From assembly GCA_021300155.1 (NCBI GenBank), contig JAJTID010000048.1, positions 1-64,000 of the forward strand: a DNA stretch of 64,000 bases, in the 5' to 3' direction. Within the stretch, counting starts at the first letter, position 1; every line of letters begins with the position of its first letter. Below the pieces are notes generated by a model. That model searched no databases. It saw nothing but the letters and a program-made list of their open reading frames with translations, and was not told the DNA's origin. Source of the stretch: Pirellula sp. (lineage in GTDB: Bacteria; Planctomycetota; Planctomycetia; Pirellulales; Pirellulaceae). The position numbers and the translations under genes are program-made. Shown here in pieces: positions 46,645-56,962 of the stretch.

Positions 46645-48990
46645 ATGAGTAGTTACCTCAGAACAATGAAGGGTCTTCGAGCCAAGGCTATGCTAGAGCT
46701 AGTCCGGTGGCTGCTCTGCGCGTCTTTCGTTTTCGCTGGCGTGCAAAGCCAAGCCCAGGACATCGATAACATACTCAAGGAGCTCGATATCTCGGGTTCG
46801 TTGCTCGATATGGCTCCGTTTGACATCATTACCTTGATCCCATCGGAAAGCGGCAAGAGCGTTCTTGTTAATCTTTTAGAACTACCGAACAGAAAGGTGC
46901 CTACCAATCCGAAAACAACGGAAAAGCTACGTTGCGTTCTGAATATTTTTCCCGGTCGCGTCTATGAAGTCGCATGGAAAGATATAGCCAAGGTGACACT
47001 TTGGGAAGATTTGCTCTTGGATCGAGCGAAAAAGCATATCGAAGAACGTAGCTACGCCGAAGCCTTCGAGTATCTCGTCCATTTGCGAGACAATTATCCA
47101 CAGGTCGCAAACATTAGTGCGCTCCATCAGGATTTTTTGTTTCGCACCGCTCGCGACATGGCAAACGAAGGAGATTTACCTCATACGTTAGCCGCTTTAG
47201 AAGAACTGCAGCGAAAGTTTCCGGCCTTTAAGACAAAGGAAGTCCAGAATGCGATTTCGAATGTTGCTAAGAAACTGATCGATGATCTTTTTCAACGTGA
47301 TGAATTGGCCGTCGCGCGTTCGATGATCTTGCGACTTGATTCGGAGTATAAAGGTAGTTTGCCTGTGGTGTCGCAAGCGAAGGCAAGATTCGCAGACCTA
47401 GCAGAGAGTTATCTCGAAAAATCAAAGGCCTATCGAGACGAAGGAGATTATGGTCGTGCGCGAACGGCCGCTGTCAAAATGCTGGAGATCGAACCAACTC
47501 TCAAAGGCGGGAAAGAGTACCTACAAGAGTTGGTGAAATCTTTCCCATTGGTCCGAATTGGCGTGTTTCAACAATCATCCAAAGCGGACACCGCTGCGTT
47601 GGCGGATTGGCCTGCGTTGAGAAATGGACAGATTCTCTCAAGTCCTGTCTTTGAGTTTAGAAATACAGGTCCTGAGGGTGGCATCTACAAGTTTTCGTTC
47701 GGAAACGCGATGCACAGTGACGACCGGCAAGAGCTGGATCTGACCATTCAGAATCCTGGAAAATCAAAAATTCCCGACAGCCTGATCTTGTCGCAAGCGA
47801 TGCTCAATAGAGCCCGTGTGGGTGGACCGCAATATACACCGAGCTGGGCATCGATTTTGGATTCGGTCACCGTATCTGGCCCGGAGCGATTGAAGCTTAA
47901 ATTTCGGCGCCCCCATGTTTTGCCGCAAGCGTTCTTGCAATGGCAACTGCCTCCTTCTGCAGAGATGTCGTTTGATCGCTCCGTCTATCGTTTGAAGGCC
48001 GAAGATAAAGAAAGAAAACGGTATGAATGGGCTGGTGAAAGTGACCCCGCAGACTTTCAACCTCGCGAAATACAAGAAATCCTCTATTCCGATCCCATGA
48101 AAGCAATCAGCGATCTGATCAAAGGAGAGATTGAATTTATCGACCGATTGTTCCCCGCCGATGCAAAACGTCTCGGCAATGTGCCTGCTATCAAAACTGA
48201 ACCGTATGCTTTGCCGATGGTTCACATGCTGGTGCCGCGAGGCAAGAATCCGTTTATGGAAGATCGTGAGTTTAAACGCGCTATGTTGTACGCGATCAAT
48301 CGAGAAGTGATCTTGCGCGATGAGATCTTGGGCGGAGCGGCAACTCCCGCCGATCGATTGATTAGTGGTCCTTTCCCGGCAGGAGTCAGTGACTCCGATG
48401 CGATCGCTTATGCCTACAATTCGAGTGTAGAGACCATTCCTTATGATCCTCGACTTGCCAAGGTATTAGTACTTCTAGCGCAGGCTAACCAGGCAACCAA
48501 AGCAGCAAAGAAACGTGAGGCGGCACCGAAGCTTCCCGTCGTGCGATTGGGAGTGCCAAACTATGAGTCGACGCGAGTTGCCGGACAAGCGATCATGCAA
48601 GCGTGGAAGATTGTCGGGATCGATAGCGAATTGGTTCTGTATGATACGATCCCTTCGCCTGAGGATGAATCGATCGACGTCCTTTATCTGTCGGCTTCCG
48701 TTTGGGAGCCAGCTACAGATGCCGAGAGACTCTTTGGTAAAGGCGCTCCAGCAGAGACAAATAACCAGTATATTGTTCAGTCCCTTGGAAAACTGAATAG
48801 TGCCAGGAACTGGAAAGAAGTGCGCGATGGCTGCCAAGATTTGCACGCACTGGTCGCCTCGCATCTACCGATACTACCTCTCTGGCAAGTGAGCGAGACC
48901 TTTGCTTATCGAACGGAGATGGCGGGAGTATCGAAACGCCCAATTGGTTTGTATCAAGATGTCCAGAAGTGGAGGATTCAAGTAAAGTGA
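46645..48990 (+). CDS. Periplasmic oligopeptide-binding-protein relative with TPR-like N-terminus
   Basis: 781 residues with a signal peptide (LLCASFVFAGVQSQAQ). Residues 30-290 look helical and TPR-like (YAEAFEYLVHLRDNYPQ, YLEKSKAYRDEGDYGRART). From about 295 the sequence follows family 5 solute-binding proteins: LVRIGVF at the start, a middle LIKGEIEFIDRLFPAD, and the hallmark FMEDREFKRAMLYAINREVIL near 535 with FGKGAPAET near 695. No ABC permease or ATPase genes are nearby, so a classical importer role is doubtful. It overlaps the next gene (GTGA). Confidence 0.82.
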   Translation: MSSYLRTMKGLRAKAMLELVRWLLCASFVFAGVQSQAQDIDNILKELDISGSLLDMAPFDIITLIPSESGKSVLVNLLELPNRKVPTNPKTTEKLRCVLNIFPGRVYEVAWKDIAKVTLWEDLLLDRAKKHIEERSYAEAFEYLVHLRDNYPQVANISALHQDFLFRTARDMANEGDLPHTLAALEELQRKFPAFKTKEVQNAISNVAKKLIDDLFQRDELAVARSMILRLDSEYKGSLPVVSQAKARFADLAESYLEKSKAYRDEGDYGRARTAAVKMLEIEPTLKGGKEYLQELVKSFPLVRIGVFQQSSKADTAALADWPALRNGQILSSPVFEFRNTGPEGGIYKFSFGNAMHSDDRQELDLTIQNPGKSKIPDSLILSQAMLNRARVGGPQYTPSWASILDSVTVSGPERLKLKFRRPHVLPQAFLQWQLPPSAEMSFDRSVYRLKAEDKERKRYEWAGESDPADFQPREIQEILYSDPMKAISDLIKGEIEFIDRLFPADAKRLGNVPAIKTEPYALPMVHMLVPRGKNPFMEDREFKRAMLYAINREVILRDEILGGAATPADRLISGPFPAGVSDSDAIAYAYNSSVETIPYDPRLAKVLVLLAQANQATKAAKKREAAPKLPVVRLGVPNYESTRVAGQAIMQAWKIVGIDSELVLYDTIPSPEDESIDVLYLSASVWEPATDAERLFGKGAPAETNNQYIVQSLGKLNSARNWKEVRDGCQDLHALVASHLPILPLWQVSETFAYRTEMAGVSKRPIGLYQDVQKWRIQVK

Positions 48991-51218
48991 AGTTGAATCC
49001 ATCGTTATTGGCCACTCGGACACTAGTTGCGCGAAATTGCTCTTTCATGTTGAACGCTTGGGCGTTGTTCTTCGCATTCGTTGTTACGACGTCTCGTTCG
49101 GAAGCCCAAGATATTTGGGAATATGCACCGTATCGGGTTAGCGTATGGGTTACTGTCGCGCCCAGCATCGGTTGGACCGAATCGAGCGAACAGGATTTTC
49201 ATCGAAAAGTACAAGAGCTATGCGAAGTAGACTTTGGTGGAACCTGGAAAATAAAATCACAGTCTGCACCTGATTCTCTTTATGGATCGTTGCTGTATCG
49301 AATTGATGAAATGTCGATTCAGCAAGTGCTTGCGCGAGAAATGACCTTGGTAGTTGGCAAGTCGGAAAAAGCAAAAGCGAAGTTTTTGGAACTGAATCCA
49401 CCTCCTCCGCCAGTTGTCTTGACACCTGCCGAGGAGGCAAAACGCAAGAAGATGTCCAAAGAACAGATCCAGGAAATGGAGGATGCAGCAGCGCGAGCCG
49501 CCAGTCTGAACAGCGTGCGTACTTTTGATTCAGCATTGGAGAGAATTGATTCATTCCATGTCATGTCGCTCCCTTATTCAGGGCTCATCCGAGATCTAGT
49601 TCCCTATCAACAGACCGAACGATGGAAGAAGTTTTCAGACAAAGTTCGTTTGTTCCCGGGTTCTTTAGAAAAGCTCAAATCGGATTTGTCTGAGGGCAAT
49701 ATTGTTGCTGCATTAATTCCTAAAACGGAGTTGAATCTGATCAAAGATGTTGCACGTTCTATTCCGGCTCGATTACCTTGGCAGCCTGAACAATTGCTTC
49801 GCGACTATGACAAGATCTTCTTGGCATCGATCGATCGTTCGGGTGAGAACTATCGAATACGCGTTCGTGAATTGGACTCCGTCGTCCGTCGAATGAGCGA
49901 GACATCGACGAGCGAAGCCTTCCGTCGAGAGGATATCGCTCGATCCTTAGTCCATCAAATGCGATCCGTCTTTTCGCCCGTGGTGCGAATCGAAGAAACC
50001 GACAACTTCACGGCGACGATGCGAGTCAAGAGCTCAGGTCTTATCGTAGGTAAAGATCATCCGGCCAAAATTGGTATCGGAGATGTTGTGGTTCCATTCA
50101 TTCGTCGCGATGACATGAATGGCAATCCGACATTGCTTCAGAATTTACCTTTTACCTTCATTGCAGCCACAGAAAAGATCGATGAGACGTCGTTGTTTTA
50201 CGGGGCTATTTTCTCAGCGAGTCGCGGCGCACTGACGGCTGCAAAGAACAGACGCACCCAACGCTTGGGGCTGAAGATATCTGCTTCTCATCCGGCCTCC
50301 GAATTGAAGCTAACCTTTCGACAGCAGATTGTAGCTGGAAAACTTCAGCCCCCAGTCGCAGTACCGGGTGCAGAGATCTATCAGCGAACACCGGGGCACG
50401 ATGATTTGTTGATGTTGGGAAGAACTGATTGGCAAGGGAATATATCTCTCAATGCAACATCGCTGCCGACGATCAAATACGAGATTCCAACCGCAAGTCG
50501 TAATCGTGCTATCGCAGACGCCCGCAAAGTCGTGCGCGATCCGGTGCCACCACCCAAGTATCCAGAACCACCACCCGAACCTCAAGCGACAGAATCTCAA
50601 GCCGTTCCCTCACCCGGAGAAAAGAGCGACGAGGGCAAGTCGATGGAGGAGCCTAAACCAACGCCGAAAAAATCAGAAGAAGAAGCATTGGTAAAGATGG
50701 CAGCTCCCGTCACTGAGGCTCTACCACCGAAACCGATCAAGGGGGAAGTTCAGATCAACTACCCGTTGTATCTTTACTACGTGAAGAATGGAGATACTCT
50801 GTTGGCAAGATTGCCGATCGTCACAGGCATGTCGCCGATAGAAGAAGCAAAATTGCCCGACGACAGAAAACGGTTGGAGACCGAAGCGTTCTTGAAAGGA
50901 TTGCAGAACGAAGTGCTCGATCTCGTTGTGCGTCGAAAGATTCTCGAATCACGCATCAACAAGCAGCTGGCCGATAAAAAAGTTGCCGAAGCCGAAAAGT
51001 ATTTGGACCAGTTCAAACGAATCAAGTCCTATGAAAAACTATCCGAACAGATCGAATCAATTCAGCGTCGGGCCATGCTCAATGATGCTGGAAAGATCAG
51101 CCCAGCCCTCGAGAAAAAGATCGATACGATGGTGGATACCACCAGGCAGATCATGCAAAAATGGTTGCAAGATTCAATGCTTCGAGATCTCGAATTGAAA
51201 GTTAGCGAAGCCAAATGA
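48987..51218 (+). CDS. Large exported protein of unknown function
   Basis: 743 residues from the GTG at 48987, which overlaps the previous stop as GTGA; an upstream GTG at 48969 would add six residues. A signal peptide (CSFMLNAWALFFAFVVTTSRSEA) leads into a mixed region. Near residue 30-150 the order of strands and a charged helix (LTPAEEAKRKKMSKEQIQEME) is distinctive. The middle holds beta-rich parts (VVPFIRRDDMNGNPTLLQNL). A proline-rich linker lies at about 515-570. The last 130 residues form a coiled coil (VVRRKILESRINKQLADKKV). Its partners are presumably the other exported products of this operon. Confidence 0.72.
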   Translation: MKLNPSLLATRTLVARNCSFMLNAWALFFAFVVTTSRSEAQDIWEYAPYRVSVWVTVAPSIGWTESSEQDFHRKVQELCEVDFGGTWKIKSQSAPDSLYGSLLYRIDEMSIQQVLAREMTLVVGKSEKAKAKFLELNPPPPPVVLTPAEEAKRKKMSKEQIQEMEDAAARAASLNSVRTFDSALERIDSFHVMSLPYSGLIRDLVPYQQTERWKKFSDKVRLFPGSLEKLKSDLSEGNIVAALIPKTELNLIKDVARSIPARLPWQPEQLLRDYDKIFLASIDRSGENYRIRVRELDSVVRRMSETSTSEAFRREDIARSLVHQMRSVFSPVVRIEETDNFTATMRVKSSGLIVGKDHPAKIGIGDVVVPFIRRDDMNGNPTLLQNLPFTFIAATEKIDETSLFYGAIFSASRGALTAAKNRRTQRLGLKISASHPASELKLTFRQQIVAGKLQPPVAVPGAEIYQRTPGHDDLLMLGRTDWQGNISLNATSLPTIKYEIPTASRNRAIADARKVVRDPVPPPKYPEPPPEPQATESQAVPSPGEKSDEGKSMEEPKPTPKKSEEEALVKMAAPVTEALPPKPIKGEVQINYPLYLYYVKNGDTLLARLPIVTGMSPIEEAKLPDDRKRLETEAFLKGLQNEVLDLVVRRKILESRINKQLADKKVAEAEKYLDQFKRIKSYEKLSEQIESIQRRAMLNDAGKISPALEKKIDTMVDTTRQIMQKWLQDSMLRDLELKVSEAK

Positions 51219-51592: not shown

Positions 51593-51617
51593 TCGATTGA
51601 AGTTGTTGGATAGAGTC

Positions 51618-52064
51618 ATGGCAAGAAAAAATGACGCAGATGAAGTAGAGGTCGTCCGACAAATTCTGCGATCCGTTGGTCTGCGTAGCACTCCTGCGCG
51701 AATCGCAGTGTTGACGTTGTTGCGCAAAGCATCCAAGCCGCGAACCCATGCAGAACTCTCCGAGCAACTCGTTCCGATGGGATTTGATAAAGCGACAGTG
51801 TTTCGAAACCTATCGGATTTGGCCGATGCCGAACTCATCGTTCGTACCGAGTTGGGTGACCATGTGTGGCGATTTGAAATCCGCGATCCAAATCACGACC
51901 GCAGCAGCCATCCCCATTTTGTTTGTGTAGATTGCGGAACAGTCGCATGTCTGGTGGATGTGTCTGTTCCAGACGACCGGGTTCGGCGCACGAACAAGAT
52001 TGCTCGGATAACCGAAGTCTTGGTCAAGGGCCATTGTTTAAGTTGTGAACCTGCCGGAGTTTAG
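51618..52064 (+). CDS. fur: Fur-family metal-dependent regulator
   Basis: About 148 residues from the ATG at 51618; a TTG at 51597 would add seven. N-terminal winged helix: LRSVGLRSTPARIAVLTLL, with KATVFRNLSDLADAELI as the DNA-reading part. The C-terminal dimer domain has HPHFVCVDCGTVACL and GHCLSCEP, two CxxC pairs for the structural zinc. Whether the metal it senses is iron, zinc or the peroxide-sensing type cannot be told. It directly precedes the MNIO locus, which is of interest because such loci are often metal-controlled. Confidence 0.85.
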   Translation: MARKNDADEVEVVRQILRSVGLRSTPARIAVLTLLRKASKPRTHAELSEQLVPMGFDKATVFRNLSDLADAELIVRTELGDHVWRFEIRDPNHDRSSHPHFVCVDCGTVACLVDVSVPDDRVRRTNKIARITEVLVKGHCLSCEPAGV

Positions 52065-52209: not shown

Positions 52210-53193
52210 ATGAATTGGCTGCTGAACAATCCGCTGGGAAATCTTTATGGCCCGTATTTCTTGGTCCTCTATATCGCGTTGATTGCCGTGGCCATCGGTT
52301 GGTTACTGTTCCAACATAAAATCTCTATCGCGAACGATTCTCGCCCTCCTCTACCTGTCCCACGCCAGATCGATCCTTATCTCTTTGCGTACCTTCGAGG
52401 TAGCTCGAACGAAGTGATTCGTCTAGGTTTCGTCGAGTTGTTGGAGAAAGGATGGATCGAACCGGTGAAGGGACTCAAGCGATCCACCAAGTACCAGTCG
52501 ATCGCCGAACGTCCCAAGACATTGGATAGCAACCCACTGCTGGCAGCCATCTTCGACTATTTTCGTGTTGCGAAGCAGCCTGAGTCGATGTTCCGAACGA
52601 ATCTGCCTCAGCAAGTGAAAGATAAAGCCATGCATTGGGACGCATGGATTGAAAAAGAAAACTTGAAGCCATCCTCGGATGCAAGATTCTCCTATCGCTT
52701 CCAATCCATCTTCTTGATGATTGCATTAGGCATCTTGGGTCTCTACAAATTCGTGGTAGCCGTCCTTCACGGACGAGACAATGTGATCATCCTTACCGTA
52801 TTGCTCGTCAGTACACCGATCGCCCTGTTTTGGTTAGGTTCCATGAGACGATTCACAGATCGAGGGAAGCAATTTGTCGGGGACGTTCAATCGGCATTGC
52901 GACCATCGCTGATGTCCAAGGATCCGGATGTGAAGCAACGCGTAGAATCAGAGCTTACAGACTCGACCAGCTTTCCTGTCTATGCGATGGGCGTATTCGG
53001 AATCATGGCACTCCAAGGAACCGAGCTAGACGCAGCGCACAGAGCGTTCCAAAATTCTCAACTCGCTGCGGGCGGCAGCTGCGGTGCTTCCGCCTGTGGC
53101 AGCGGTGTGAGCTGCGGTGGCGGTGCTAGCTGCGGTGGCGGAGGAGGAGGTGGATGCGGAGGCGGCGGGTGTGGTGGTTGCGGTGCGGGCTAA
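52210..53193 (+). CDS. TIGR04222-type membrane protein with Gly/Cys-only tail
   Basis: 327 residues. An N-terminal span (about 12-30) is followed by the TIGR04222 landmark DPYLFAYLRGSSNEVIRL near 57, then a winged-helix-like stretch (FVELLEKGWIEPVKGLKR) and two more spans near 170-187 and 195-212. After DAAHRAFQNSQLAAGG come about 37 residues of almost pure Gly and Cys with seven cysteines (SCGASACGSGVSCGGG and onward). As I recall, the family is defined by such tails and found beside DUF692 genes. I infer that the tail is the substrate of the next gene's enzyme. Confidence 0.85.
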   Translation: MNWLLNNPLGNLYGPYFLVLYIALIAVAIGWLLFQHKISIANDSRPPLPVPRQIDPYLFAYLRGSSNEVIRLGFVELLEKGWIEPVKGLKRSTKYQSIAERPKTLDSNPLLAAIFDYFRVAKQPESMFRTNLPQQVKDKAMHWDAWIEKENLKPSSDARFSYRFQSIFLMIALGILGLYKFVVAVLHGRDNVIILTVLLVSTPIALFWLGSMRRFTDRGKQFVGDVQSALRPSLMSKDPDVKQRVESELTDSTSFPVYAMGVFGIMALQGTELDAAHRAFQNSQLAAGGSCGASACGSGVSCGGGASCGGGGGGGCGGGGCGGCGAG

Positions 53194-54043
53194 TGTGGAT
53201 TGGTCGGCCCTACCAACGCTAGGTGTCGGACTGGGCTTTCGTCCGATACATCGATCGGAGATCTTTCTCTATCGAGACCAAATCCACTTTCTCGAAGTCA
53301 CCGCTGATCATTACTTCGATCCTGTTGCAGAGAAAGACAACGAGCTCCGACTGCTTGCAAAGAATTTTGCGATCATCCCCCACGGATTGGCGATGTCACT
53401 CGGCTCGGCCGAAGGACTGGACGCAGAGTATGTAGCCGAGTTCACCAATGTCGTCGATACCGTTCAACCCGCTTGGTGTAGCGATCACATCGCCTTTACG
53501 CGCGCTGGCGGACTAGAGATCGGTCACCTTACTCCGATCCCGCGAACAAGAGCTTCATTGCGAGTACTCGACAGAAACATAGCGACACTGAAACAGTCCG
53601 TGTCAGTACCGATCATCTTGGAGAACATTACAGAAACAATCTTGTTCCCCGGTGAAGCGATCGAGCAAGCGGAATTCTTAACGGAGTTATGTGAACAGTC
53701 GGATGTGGGGCTTTTATTGGACGTTACAAATCTGTTCATCAATTCTGTCAATCATCGATACGATCCGATTTCCGTGTTGCAGCGGCTACCTCGCGATCGA
53801 ATCATTCAATTGCACTTCGTAGGAGGTCATCTTCGCGATGGGGTGTGGATCGATAGTCACGGTGACGAGACCAATGAAGAAGTTTGGCAACTCCTCGAAG
53901 AAGTCCTGAAGTATGCACCGGTCAAGGGAATAATCTTGGAACGTGACGAGAATATTCCACCTTTGGCTCAATTGATCCCAGAGATTTCGAGAGCCACGCA
54001 GCTTGGTAGCAAATACGGTCGTTGGGCAGCCGTCCATGACTAG
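53183..54043 (+). CDS. DUF692 protein, multinuclear non-haem iron oxidase (MNIO)
   Basis: 287 residues from the GTG at 53183 (alternatively GTG at 53195). The reading overlaps the 3' end of the Gly/Cys-tail gene. Family metal-site motifs are all present in order: HGLAMSLG, WCSDHIAF, ILENIT, LLLDVTN, LHFVGGH, DSHGDE and ILERDEN. In MbnB and TglH relatives, these motifs bind two or three irons that oxidise cysteines of a peptide into oxazolone/thioamide or related groups. Upstream in the same frame are codons that belong to the tail of the previous gene, so earlier starts are unlikely. Confidence 0.92.
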   Translation: MRANVDWSALPTLGVGLGFRPIHRSEIFLYRDQIHFLEVTADHYFDPVAEKDNELRLLAKNFAIIPHGLAMSLGSAEGLDAEYVAEFTNVVDTVQPAWCSDHIAFTRAGGLEIGHLTPIPRTRASLRVLDRNIATLKQSVSVPIILENITETILFPGEAIEQAEFLTELCEQSDVGLLLDVTNLFINSVNHRYDPISVLQRLPRDRIIQLHFVGGHLRDGVWIDSHGDETNEEVWQLLEEVLKYAPVKGIILERDENIPPLAQLIPEISRATQLGSKYGRWAAVHD

Positions 54044-54575
54044 AGAGCGTAGCGATTCGGAAGATGTCGAGCGGGAAATCGAAAGGCTTCGCATCGATCA
54101 AGAGACACTCGCTGCGATGTTGCTTAGAGTCCGAACCAACAACGATGCGTCGACATTATCCATCGATCAACAGCAACTCGACGATTCGCGTGAAACATTA
54201 TTCCGCAAGCGACAATCACAGACCGCCGCATGTCTCCCGCGAACCACAGCGATACTGAGGCAGAACTTTTTCATCGAGTATCGAAGCTTTGCGGAAGGCT
54301 ATCAGCCCAAAAGTTCGAAAGCCATCTTGGATGAAGCGATTGCATTTGCCAGCCATATCCCGAAGCACCATGTTCTCGAACGATGGAAAGAGGAAGCAGT
54401 ACGATACGATCTTTTGTTCTGCCGTTGGAAAAGAAACAAACTCTTTTTCACTATAGATCGGTTAACCTATGACCTACCAGGGTGGTCGCTTGCTATTACC
54501 GAACCACCGCACAAGAAATCGCTCCTGGTTATCGCATGGCGATGTGGCAAATTTGGTAAGATTCATTTGCTCTAA
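54036..54575 (+). CDS. Probable MNIO partner protein
   Basis: 179 residues from the ATG at 54036, overlapping the MNIO stop by eight bases. Helical: a charged start with EDVEREIERLRIDQETLAAM, then LFRKRQSQTAACLPRT near 60, FFIEYRSFAEGYQPKSS and AILDEAIAFASHIPKHHVLERWKEEAVRYDLLF. The layout 'R..R...aa.LPRT..iL...F...y..fA' resembles the partner subunits (MbnC / DUF2063-like) that bring a peptide substrate to MNIO enzymes. The homology is weak and the assignment rests mostly on position. The C-terminal 45 residues look beta-rich and are specific to this protein. Confidence 0.6.
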   Translation: MTRERSDSEDVEREIERLRIDQETLAAMLLRVRTNNDASTLSIDQQQLDDSRETLFRKRQSQTAACLPRTTAILRQNFFIEYRSFAEGYQPKSSKAILDEAIAFASHIPKHHVLERWKEEAVRYDLLFCRWKRNKLFFTIDRLTYDLPGWSLAITEPPHKKSLLVIAWRCGKFGKIHLL

Positions 54576-56683: not shown

Positions 56684-56962
56684 CTAACTTTTCATCGAGG
56701 TTTTCCAGCAAGCTCGAATTTCGGCGAGTCGTCGTTCTGCGGTTGCGACGGATTTCTCGATCATTTTTGCTGTCTCCGAATTGCTATAACCCTCCATTCG
56801 AAGGCACGCGATACGTTGAAGCTCTTGGTCTGTGAGCATCGCGAATAAACCCTGACATTCTTCTTCCACCATGGCTATCTCTTCTGGCGAAGGTGTGTTG
56901 TCTTGAACGCTATCGATACCCAGACTAGATGCTTTCAAGTCCGGCCACTCCCCCAGGTGCAA
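56684..56962 (-). pseudogene. C-terminal remnant of a planctomycete ECF sigma factor
   Basis: 92 residues matching only region 4 of ECF sigma factors: VEEECQGLFAMLTDQELQRIACLRMEGYSNSETAKMI, then SVATAERRLAEIRACW (shown here in parts). This form, with RMEGYSN and ERRLAEIR, is the one usually paired with Ser/Thr kinases in Planctomycetes. Region 2, which binds the -10 box and RNA polymerase, is missing and the only start is a TTG. The lost 5' end runs into the kinase remnant on the other strand. Confidence 0.7.

Follow-up and report, generated by a model that had tools for sequence, protein, structure and literature searches.

Positions 52210-54575 of a 64,000-nucleotide stretch of Pirellula sp. 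DNA (contig JAJTID010000048.1; "the window" below means this whole stretch) hold an operon that is real, is conserved among relatives and belongs to a type predicted recently: the gene for a membrane protein with a Gly/Cys tail comes first, then those for an MNIO enzyme and a third protein. Its chemistry we infer. The first gene (52210..53193, forward strand) encodes the putative protein substrate of 327 amino acids (aa), and its score of 70.5 bits against an NCBIfam cut-off of 43 bears out an earlier assignment to the TIGR04222 type. Transmembrane (TM) segments are predicted by a hydropathy scan at residues 16-34, 167-185 and 192-210. The translation ends in the tail (residues 288-327; 53071..53190, forward strand), which carries seven Cys, all seven with Gly next. 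The preliminary description of this DNA had reported about 37 residues of nearly pure Gly and Cys with seven Cys; the seven Cys stand, and the tail is counted here as 40 residues. The TIGR04222 core also has a weak likeness to DUF2207_C (PF20990, E 2e-5, below cut-off); DUF2207 proteins often have Gly-rich tails at the C-terminus.

The second gene (53195..54043, forward strand) encodes an oxidative enzyme of the MNIO family (DUF692, PF05114; 264.2 bits against a cut-off of 25). Its motifs HGL, SDH, EN, LDVxN, NH, DxH and LERD align with 3bww and partly with TglH and MbnB, which agrees with the expected metal-site motifs described earlier; the aligned residues presumably have the same metal-site roles. 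The start is uncertain, with an ATG that overlaps the TIGR04222 stop being out of frame, a GTG at 53195 in frame, and the reading frame open back to 53117. The third gene, of 179 aa (ATG at 54036, stop at 54575; 54036..54575, forward strand), overlaps the end of the MNIO gene by 8 bases. Of the three overlapping genes first described, the second and third therefore do overlap, whereas the first two abut if GTG 53195 is the start. At E <= 1e-3 the genome of the window has one TIGR04222 protein and one MNIO. A promoter scan gave 1 site against 3.6 expected, and terminator-like sites numbered 6 against 4.0 expected.

The third protein matches no Pfam or NCBIfam family above cut-off, lacks the DUF2063 signature, and has no convincing sequence relative in the PDB. 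Its AlphaFold2 model (18-row alignment; pLDDT 85, pTM 0.68) finds 3dee/NGO1945 as the best PDB match in Foldseek (probability 1.00, E 0.028, TM 0.50/0.46), the remaining 49 listed matches having a probability of at most 0.13. NGO1945 is the structure used by Antoine et al. 2025 to recognise PME-type 2 partners of MNIOs (PMC12452194). With its place after the MNIO, an NGO1945-like fold, albeit a distant one (TM 0.50, E 0.028), and no DUF2063 signature, the protein has the features of such a partner. Together with the position of its gene after the MNIO in relatives, the modelled fold supports the earlier proposal that it is an MNIO partner, here with a PME-type 2-like fold. In two related loci (L130 and L135), the MNIO continues into a segment that by eye resembles the start of the partner (profile E 0.62 in L135, no match in L130), and these may be MNIO-partner fusions.

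Conservation of the gene order and of the tail

TIGR04222 proteins were collected by profile search of 392 genomes of the window's phylum, of which at least 18 were over the cut-off, and of a further 292, 5, 247, 213 and 299 genomes around other centre genomes, giving at least 13, 3, 1, 5 and 13, centres included; these counts are lower bounds, as in many genomes part of the candidates was scored. Matches were fetched with flanks of up to 7 kb; those below the cut-off were left out of the wide-flank set and of the counts, except for L178 (27 bits; in the 71-protein set and outside the 49-row set defined here). With loci selected by their MNIO added, and with L141 (a 132-aa ORF, or open reading frame), L177 (a copy of L037) and ORFs below 200 aa dropped before counting, the set holds 71 proteins. 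Its 17 rows of L002-L037 come from MNIO-selected loci and inflate the MNIO class; a set of 49 rows omits them along with L148, L158, L159, L176 and L178, from genomes chosen by MNIO. L159, L171 and L175, whose tails are cut by contig ends, were excluded from tests on Cys.

Among the 71 proteins, 30 adjoin an MNIO, 23 a domain that we call WHLH (see below), three a radical SAM enzyme (in one case by manual assignment) and 15 none of these. In each of the 30 MNIO-adjacent rows, 16 of which were selected by MNIO, the MNIO gene stands downstream of TIGR04222. The full order of TIGR04222, MNIO and partner (partner E < 1e-3) recurs in 24 of the 30 loci, over phyla that include Planctomycetota, Verrucomicrobiota, Cyanobacteriota and Pseudomonadota, so that both the co-occurrence of the trio and the conservation of its order, which the preliminary description had proposed to check, are found. 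The six loci without a scored partner comprise the possible fusions L130 and L135, L176, where the contig ends too soon, and the loci L011, L136 and L139, with none. The association of TIGR04222 with DUF692, named in that description, thus exists, although it is not new: it is already predicted in print with PME-type 2 partners (PMC12452194). Antoine et al. 2025 report more than 3,500 TIGR04222 proteins, which often neighbour an MNIO and a large share of which have Cys in the C-terminus; PME-type 2 partners occur in 10% or more of the clusters. They leave the chemistry open, and find no MNIO in a third of TIGR04222 genomes (PMC12452194). The window resembles their clusters in its gene kinds, its tail (Cys/Gly/Ser in theirs) and its partner without DUF2063, and their examples include one planctomycete, Pirellula staleyi (PMC12452194).

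At least three Cys and at least 30% Gly in the last 50 residues were found in 47 of the 71 TIGR04222 proteins; among the remaining predicted ORFs of 150 aa or more in the neighbourhoods fetched, 556 in number, none has such an end, so the tail is not a matter of chance. The nearest relative, L009, keeps all seven tail Cys and lacks one Gly codon; dN/dS between the two is 0.10 for the TIGR04222 core, 0.14 for the tail, 0.065 for the MNIO and 0.26 for the third gene, and the operon genes and the tail are under purifying selection in this comparison. Free drift of the Cys beside a retained enzyme had been named in advance as a sign against the proposal. Over wider distances, Cys number (3-10 across MNIO-adjacent rows) and spacing do drift, but the local pattern is kept: Gly comes next after Cys in 317 of 380 cases (83%, against 58% Gly among non-Cys tail residues), Gly directly precedes Cys in 261 of 382, and CGGCG lies within the last 25 residues in 52 of 63 Cys-tailed rows.

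Two or more Cys in the last 70 residues are present in all 30 MNIO rows, all 23 WHLH rows and all three radical SAM rows, and in 7 of 15 unpaired rows; the six whole-tail rows without Cys are all unpaired. Among whole-tail rows derived from the genome searches, 39 of 39 paired and 4 of 8 unpaired rows are Cys-tailed (p = 4e-4, uncorrected for kinship). One sister of the MNIO-paired L016/L018 proteins (L172:6935-7789) has neither tail Cys nor a local MNIO, possibly a correlated loss of the two. A DNA search for plasmids with a TIGR04222 gene gave 2 records.

In two loci, radical SAM/SPASM ORFs start 3 bases downstream of TIGR04222 (L169:5747-6802 and L170:5780-6823). Their best NCBIfam model is SbtM, nearly tied in L169 with the ACGX model. 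In a third locus, L132, the radical SAM enzyme lies 772 bases upstream and was assigned by hand.

The WHLH domain

WHLH is a domain of about 150 residues with the core D..WH.H...YW...C...HH.P, present in 23 of the 71 TIGR04222 loci. In 16 rows it forms an N-terminal fusion with TIGR04222; in seven it is a separate, directly upstream ORF, among them L145, counted as separate because its reading frame is broken. A profile search at E <= 1e-3 did not find it in the genome of the window. Across 22 aligned copies D64, W67, H68, H70, Y77, W78, C82, H91, H92, P94 and G97 are invariant. Pfam and NCBIfam give the domain no name above cut-off, PHROGs has no family for three proteins tried, and no convincing sequence relative was found in the PDB. 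A model from a 6-row alignment is almost entirely helical at moderate confidence (pLDDT 74), and a fold search with it gave no PDB match (best E 2.4).

The best WHLH score on PF07173, which we take to be DUF1399, is 20.7 bits, below the cut-off of 22.7, and a match at E <= 10 was obtained in 4 of 15 WHLH genomes searched. The plant protein AtGRDP2 has an N-terminal DUF1399 and a C-terminal glycine-rich region with interspersed Cys, of consensus [CG]GGGCGG[GC] (PMC4299439). Plant GRDP proteins and WHLH proteins thus share a plan of an N-terminal domain and a Gly-rich, Cys-bearing C-terminus, and the plant proteins are possibly distant kin, a likeness drawn from weak PF07173 matches of some WHLH proteins below cut-off. 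In the main text of Antoine et al., a term search found no mention of GRDP or of a glycine-rich domain, and radical SAM in the references alone (PMC12452194).

MNIO and WHLH are never at one locus (0 of 71 rows). A quick 67-row tree places a single branch between the two (SH-aLRT 95.5); their exclusivity (Fisher p 4e-5) therefore does not stand for many events, and many independent swaps between MNIO and WHLH were rejected as an account. A WHLH protein occurs elsewhere in 2 of 17 MNIO-type genomes (G065 and G410). No MNIO was found in 13 of the 23 WHLH-type genomes, one of them a single contig of 7.4 Mb (G352), so tail and MNIO can occur apart, and strict linkage between the two was rejected.

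The MNIOs of the other ten WHLH-type genomes (L190-L199) were scored on a home-made profile built from TIGR04222-adjacent MNIOs, with L014, L017 and L036 among them. They reach 83-255 bits, against 392 for L189, which is outside the training set. As the actinobacterial L206 and L207, also outside it and TIGR04222-adjacent, score 257 and 269, the profile score alone does not separate the types everywhere. The downstream neighbours of eight of the ten show the DUF2063 signature, typical of bufferin partners, in seven (L190-L195 and L197) and not in L199.

WHLH proteins without TIGR04222 are the more telling set, because they were found via the domain and not via the tail. They come from viral contigs (L179-L185), Rhizobium gallicum (L208, L211), Deinococcus (L209), Streptomyces (L210), a 595 kb phage record (L212) and the genomes L201-L205, the sources including plasmids and large phage contigs. 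Of 16 different proteins, 14 have at least three Cys after the domain, the exceptions being L204, with two, and the fragment L205. GCGGCG stands at the C-terminal end in L179, L181-L184 and L202; the tails of L203, L210 and L211 are short and Cys-rich without being Gly-rich, and the end of L209 lacks the pattern. The WHLH proteins of the viral contigs L179-L184 and L212 have Ser/Gly/Cys tails.

Another account of these observations has WHLH serving for binding or structure, with a mere tendency to bear Gly/Cys tails, and its separation from MNIO as an accident of one ancient split; we place it a little short of an even chance. The 30-versus-23 exclusivity is indeed a single event on the tree, the domain has no PDB fold match from which a catalytic function could be read, and in three distant copies (L203, L210 and L211) WHxH is replaced by WHxF. 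Against this, the Cys persist in the 14 proteins without TIGR04222, and the invariant His/Cys/Asp/Trp core of the 22 closer copies resembles a metal or catalytic site. The survey points to the tail as the part that stays constant, with an exchangeable maturation module (MNIO, WHLH or, rarely, an SbtM-like radical SAM enzyme). A broader proposal is speculative and, in our estimate, rather doubtful: that the Gly/Cys tail is an ancient portable metal-handling module matured by MNIO and partner, by an SbtM-like radical SAM enzyme or by WHLH, the last being an unrecognised metal-dependent peptide-modifying domain of bacteria and large phages that is distantly shared with plant GRDP proteins. In the literature searched, one tail with three alternative partners was not found described, and no paper linked the WHLH domain with TIGR04222 or MNIO. 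Should one and the same tail have MNIO, radical SAM or WHLH as its module, its product would be open to testing in three ways. WHLH, if it works as such a module, would add a new class of peptide-modifying proteins and might point to a biochemical function of plant GRDP proteins.

Proposed fate of the tail cysteines

For the operon in the window we propose a substrate, an enzyme and a partner. The partner, with its DUF2063-like helical fold, would present to the MNIO the Gly/Cys tail at the C-terminus of the TIGR04222 protein. The MNIO would then oxidise the Cys of CG units, most likely to 5-thiooxazoles, and the product would be a membrane-anchored array of metal ligands, probably for copper. 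As a whole, with tail Cys converted to thiooxazoles that form a tethered metal-binding surface, this reading seems to us somewhat better than an even bet. Its parts differ in strength. That the tail is the MNIO substrate, as first suggested, is well supported by the order conserved in 24 of 30 loci and by the CG-rich Cys tails; by analogy, thiooxazole chemistry on the tail is moderately supported; metal capture is a weak suggestion. The operon would be a compact case of a predicted class in which an MNIO modifies an integral membrane protein.

Thiooxazoles are proposed mainly because two unrelated enzyme classes with one likely product adjoin one kind of tail. In the bufferins, an MNIO and its partner likewise act on Cys-Gly units, and the thiooxazoles of MNIO-made Buf1 chelate copper (PMC12452194). 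The bufferin maturase BufB is the nearest NCBIfam model for the window MNIO (221 bits against a cut-off of 310), followed by HvfB (187 against 360). The window operon differs from bufferin systems in that its MNIO is below the BufB cut-off, its third protein has no DUF2063 match, and its putative substrate is an integral membrane protein where the bufferin precursor has a Sec signal peptide (PMC12452194). The second class is that of SbtM, the thio(seleno)oxazole system unrelated to MNIO, which converts Cys to thiooxazole, four hydrogens being lost (PMC11002830). The thiooxazole group commonly absorbs near 305 nm, a feature not unique to it (PMC13097082).

Several observations count against this proposal. 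The radical SAM enzymes of L169 and L170 score 114.5 and 142.3 bits, far below the SbtM (TIGR04082) cut-off of 350, and that of L132 fits NirJ equally well. Six complete Cys-tailed rows have no local partner: for L148, L156 and L158 an MNIO is present elsewhere in the genome, and no MNIO turned up in the genomes of L131 (itself on a contig of 3.8 kb), L154 and L173. In Streptomyces L206 an MNIO, a partner-like gene and TIGR04222 follow in that order, outside the 30 loci counted, and the Cys tail is lacking; Nonomuraea L207 has two Cys-tailed TIGR04222 copies. After correction on the tree, the association of Cys with a partner is reduced to five independent pairs, of which 3-4 are concordant and none opposed (median p = 0.125), a test too small to decide. 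The open PMC literature yielded no biochemistry and no tested TIGR04222 tail.

The side of the membrane bears on the proposal too, as a finished periplasmic tail would be out of reach of a cytoplasmic enzyme, and Antoine et al. favour a periplasmic tail (PMC12452194), where the charge patterns here lean to the cytoplasm. By a simple hydropathy scan, 39 of the 71 proteins have three TM segments, 21 have four and 11 fewer; of the 39, 31 have a Lys/Arg density that points to a tail in the cytoplasm (p = 3e-6, uncorrected for kinship). In 20 of the 71 rows (20 of the 21 four-TM proteins) one weak segment lies immediately ahead of the tail and would reverse the side, and in a few of the 39 such a weak late segment is the third TM segment. 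In the phage WHLH proteins two hydrophobic stretches, judged by eye, seem to separate domain and tail, so that both would lie on one side, presumably the cytoplasm. The case for a cytoplasmic tail in window-type proteins is weak to moderate.

It is unlikely, in our view, that the tail Cys act unmodified, as metal-binding thiols, disulfides or an anchor, with MNIO and partner being co-regulated neighbours that modify another target. Such a view would accommodate the Cys tails in the 13 WHLH-type genomes without a found MNIO, the Cys of the 7 unpaired rows, and loci in which window-type MNIO and partner stand with no TIGR04222 gene beside them (L036:3983-5445 and L189:2950-4421, the L036 genome having no TIGR04222 match by profile search) or an MNIO stands alone (L014). 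It sits poorly with a gene order conserved over phyla, with the six Cys-less whole-tail rows all being unpaired, and with the presence of another dedicated domain in most Cys-tailed rows without MNIO (23 WHLH and 3 radical SAM of 33). Least probable of the alternatives is that the MNIO excises or rearranges Cys in the manner of TglH or ChrH, or that the tail is released as a peptide, leaving no tethered metal-binding tail: MNIO chemistry is diverse (PMC11002830) and PF05114 is unable to distinguish MNIO reactions, but the nearest NCBIfam models, though below cut-off, are the bufferin and HvfB maturases, and beyond TIGR04222/WHLH, MNIO and partner no gene family occurs in more than 14 of 75 neighbourhoods (no search aimed at proteases was made).

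Neighbouring genes

A Fur-family regulator lies upstream of the operon (51597..52064, forward strand; PF01475, 50.3 bits) and had been offered as a metal link. That link did not hold up, as a Fur-like neighbour is kept in L009 alone of 16 MNIO-selected loci with TIGR04222 (L013 and L018 have fewer than 400 bases upstream). Fur was accordingly rejected as a component of the system and is probably a neighbour rather than a part of it. Further upstream, 48969-51218 encodes a predicted protein of 749 aa with no Pfam or NCBIfam match at E <= 0.1. Downstream, a short ORF on the reverse strand (56684-56962) matches the C-terminal part alone of an ECF sigma factor (PF07638 positions 108-183).

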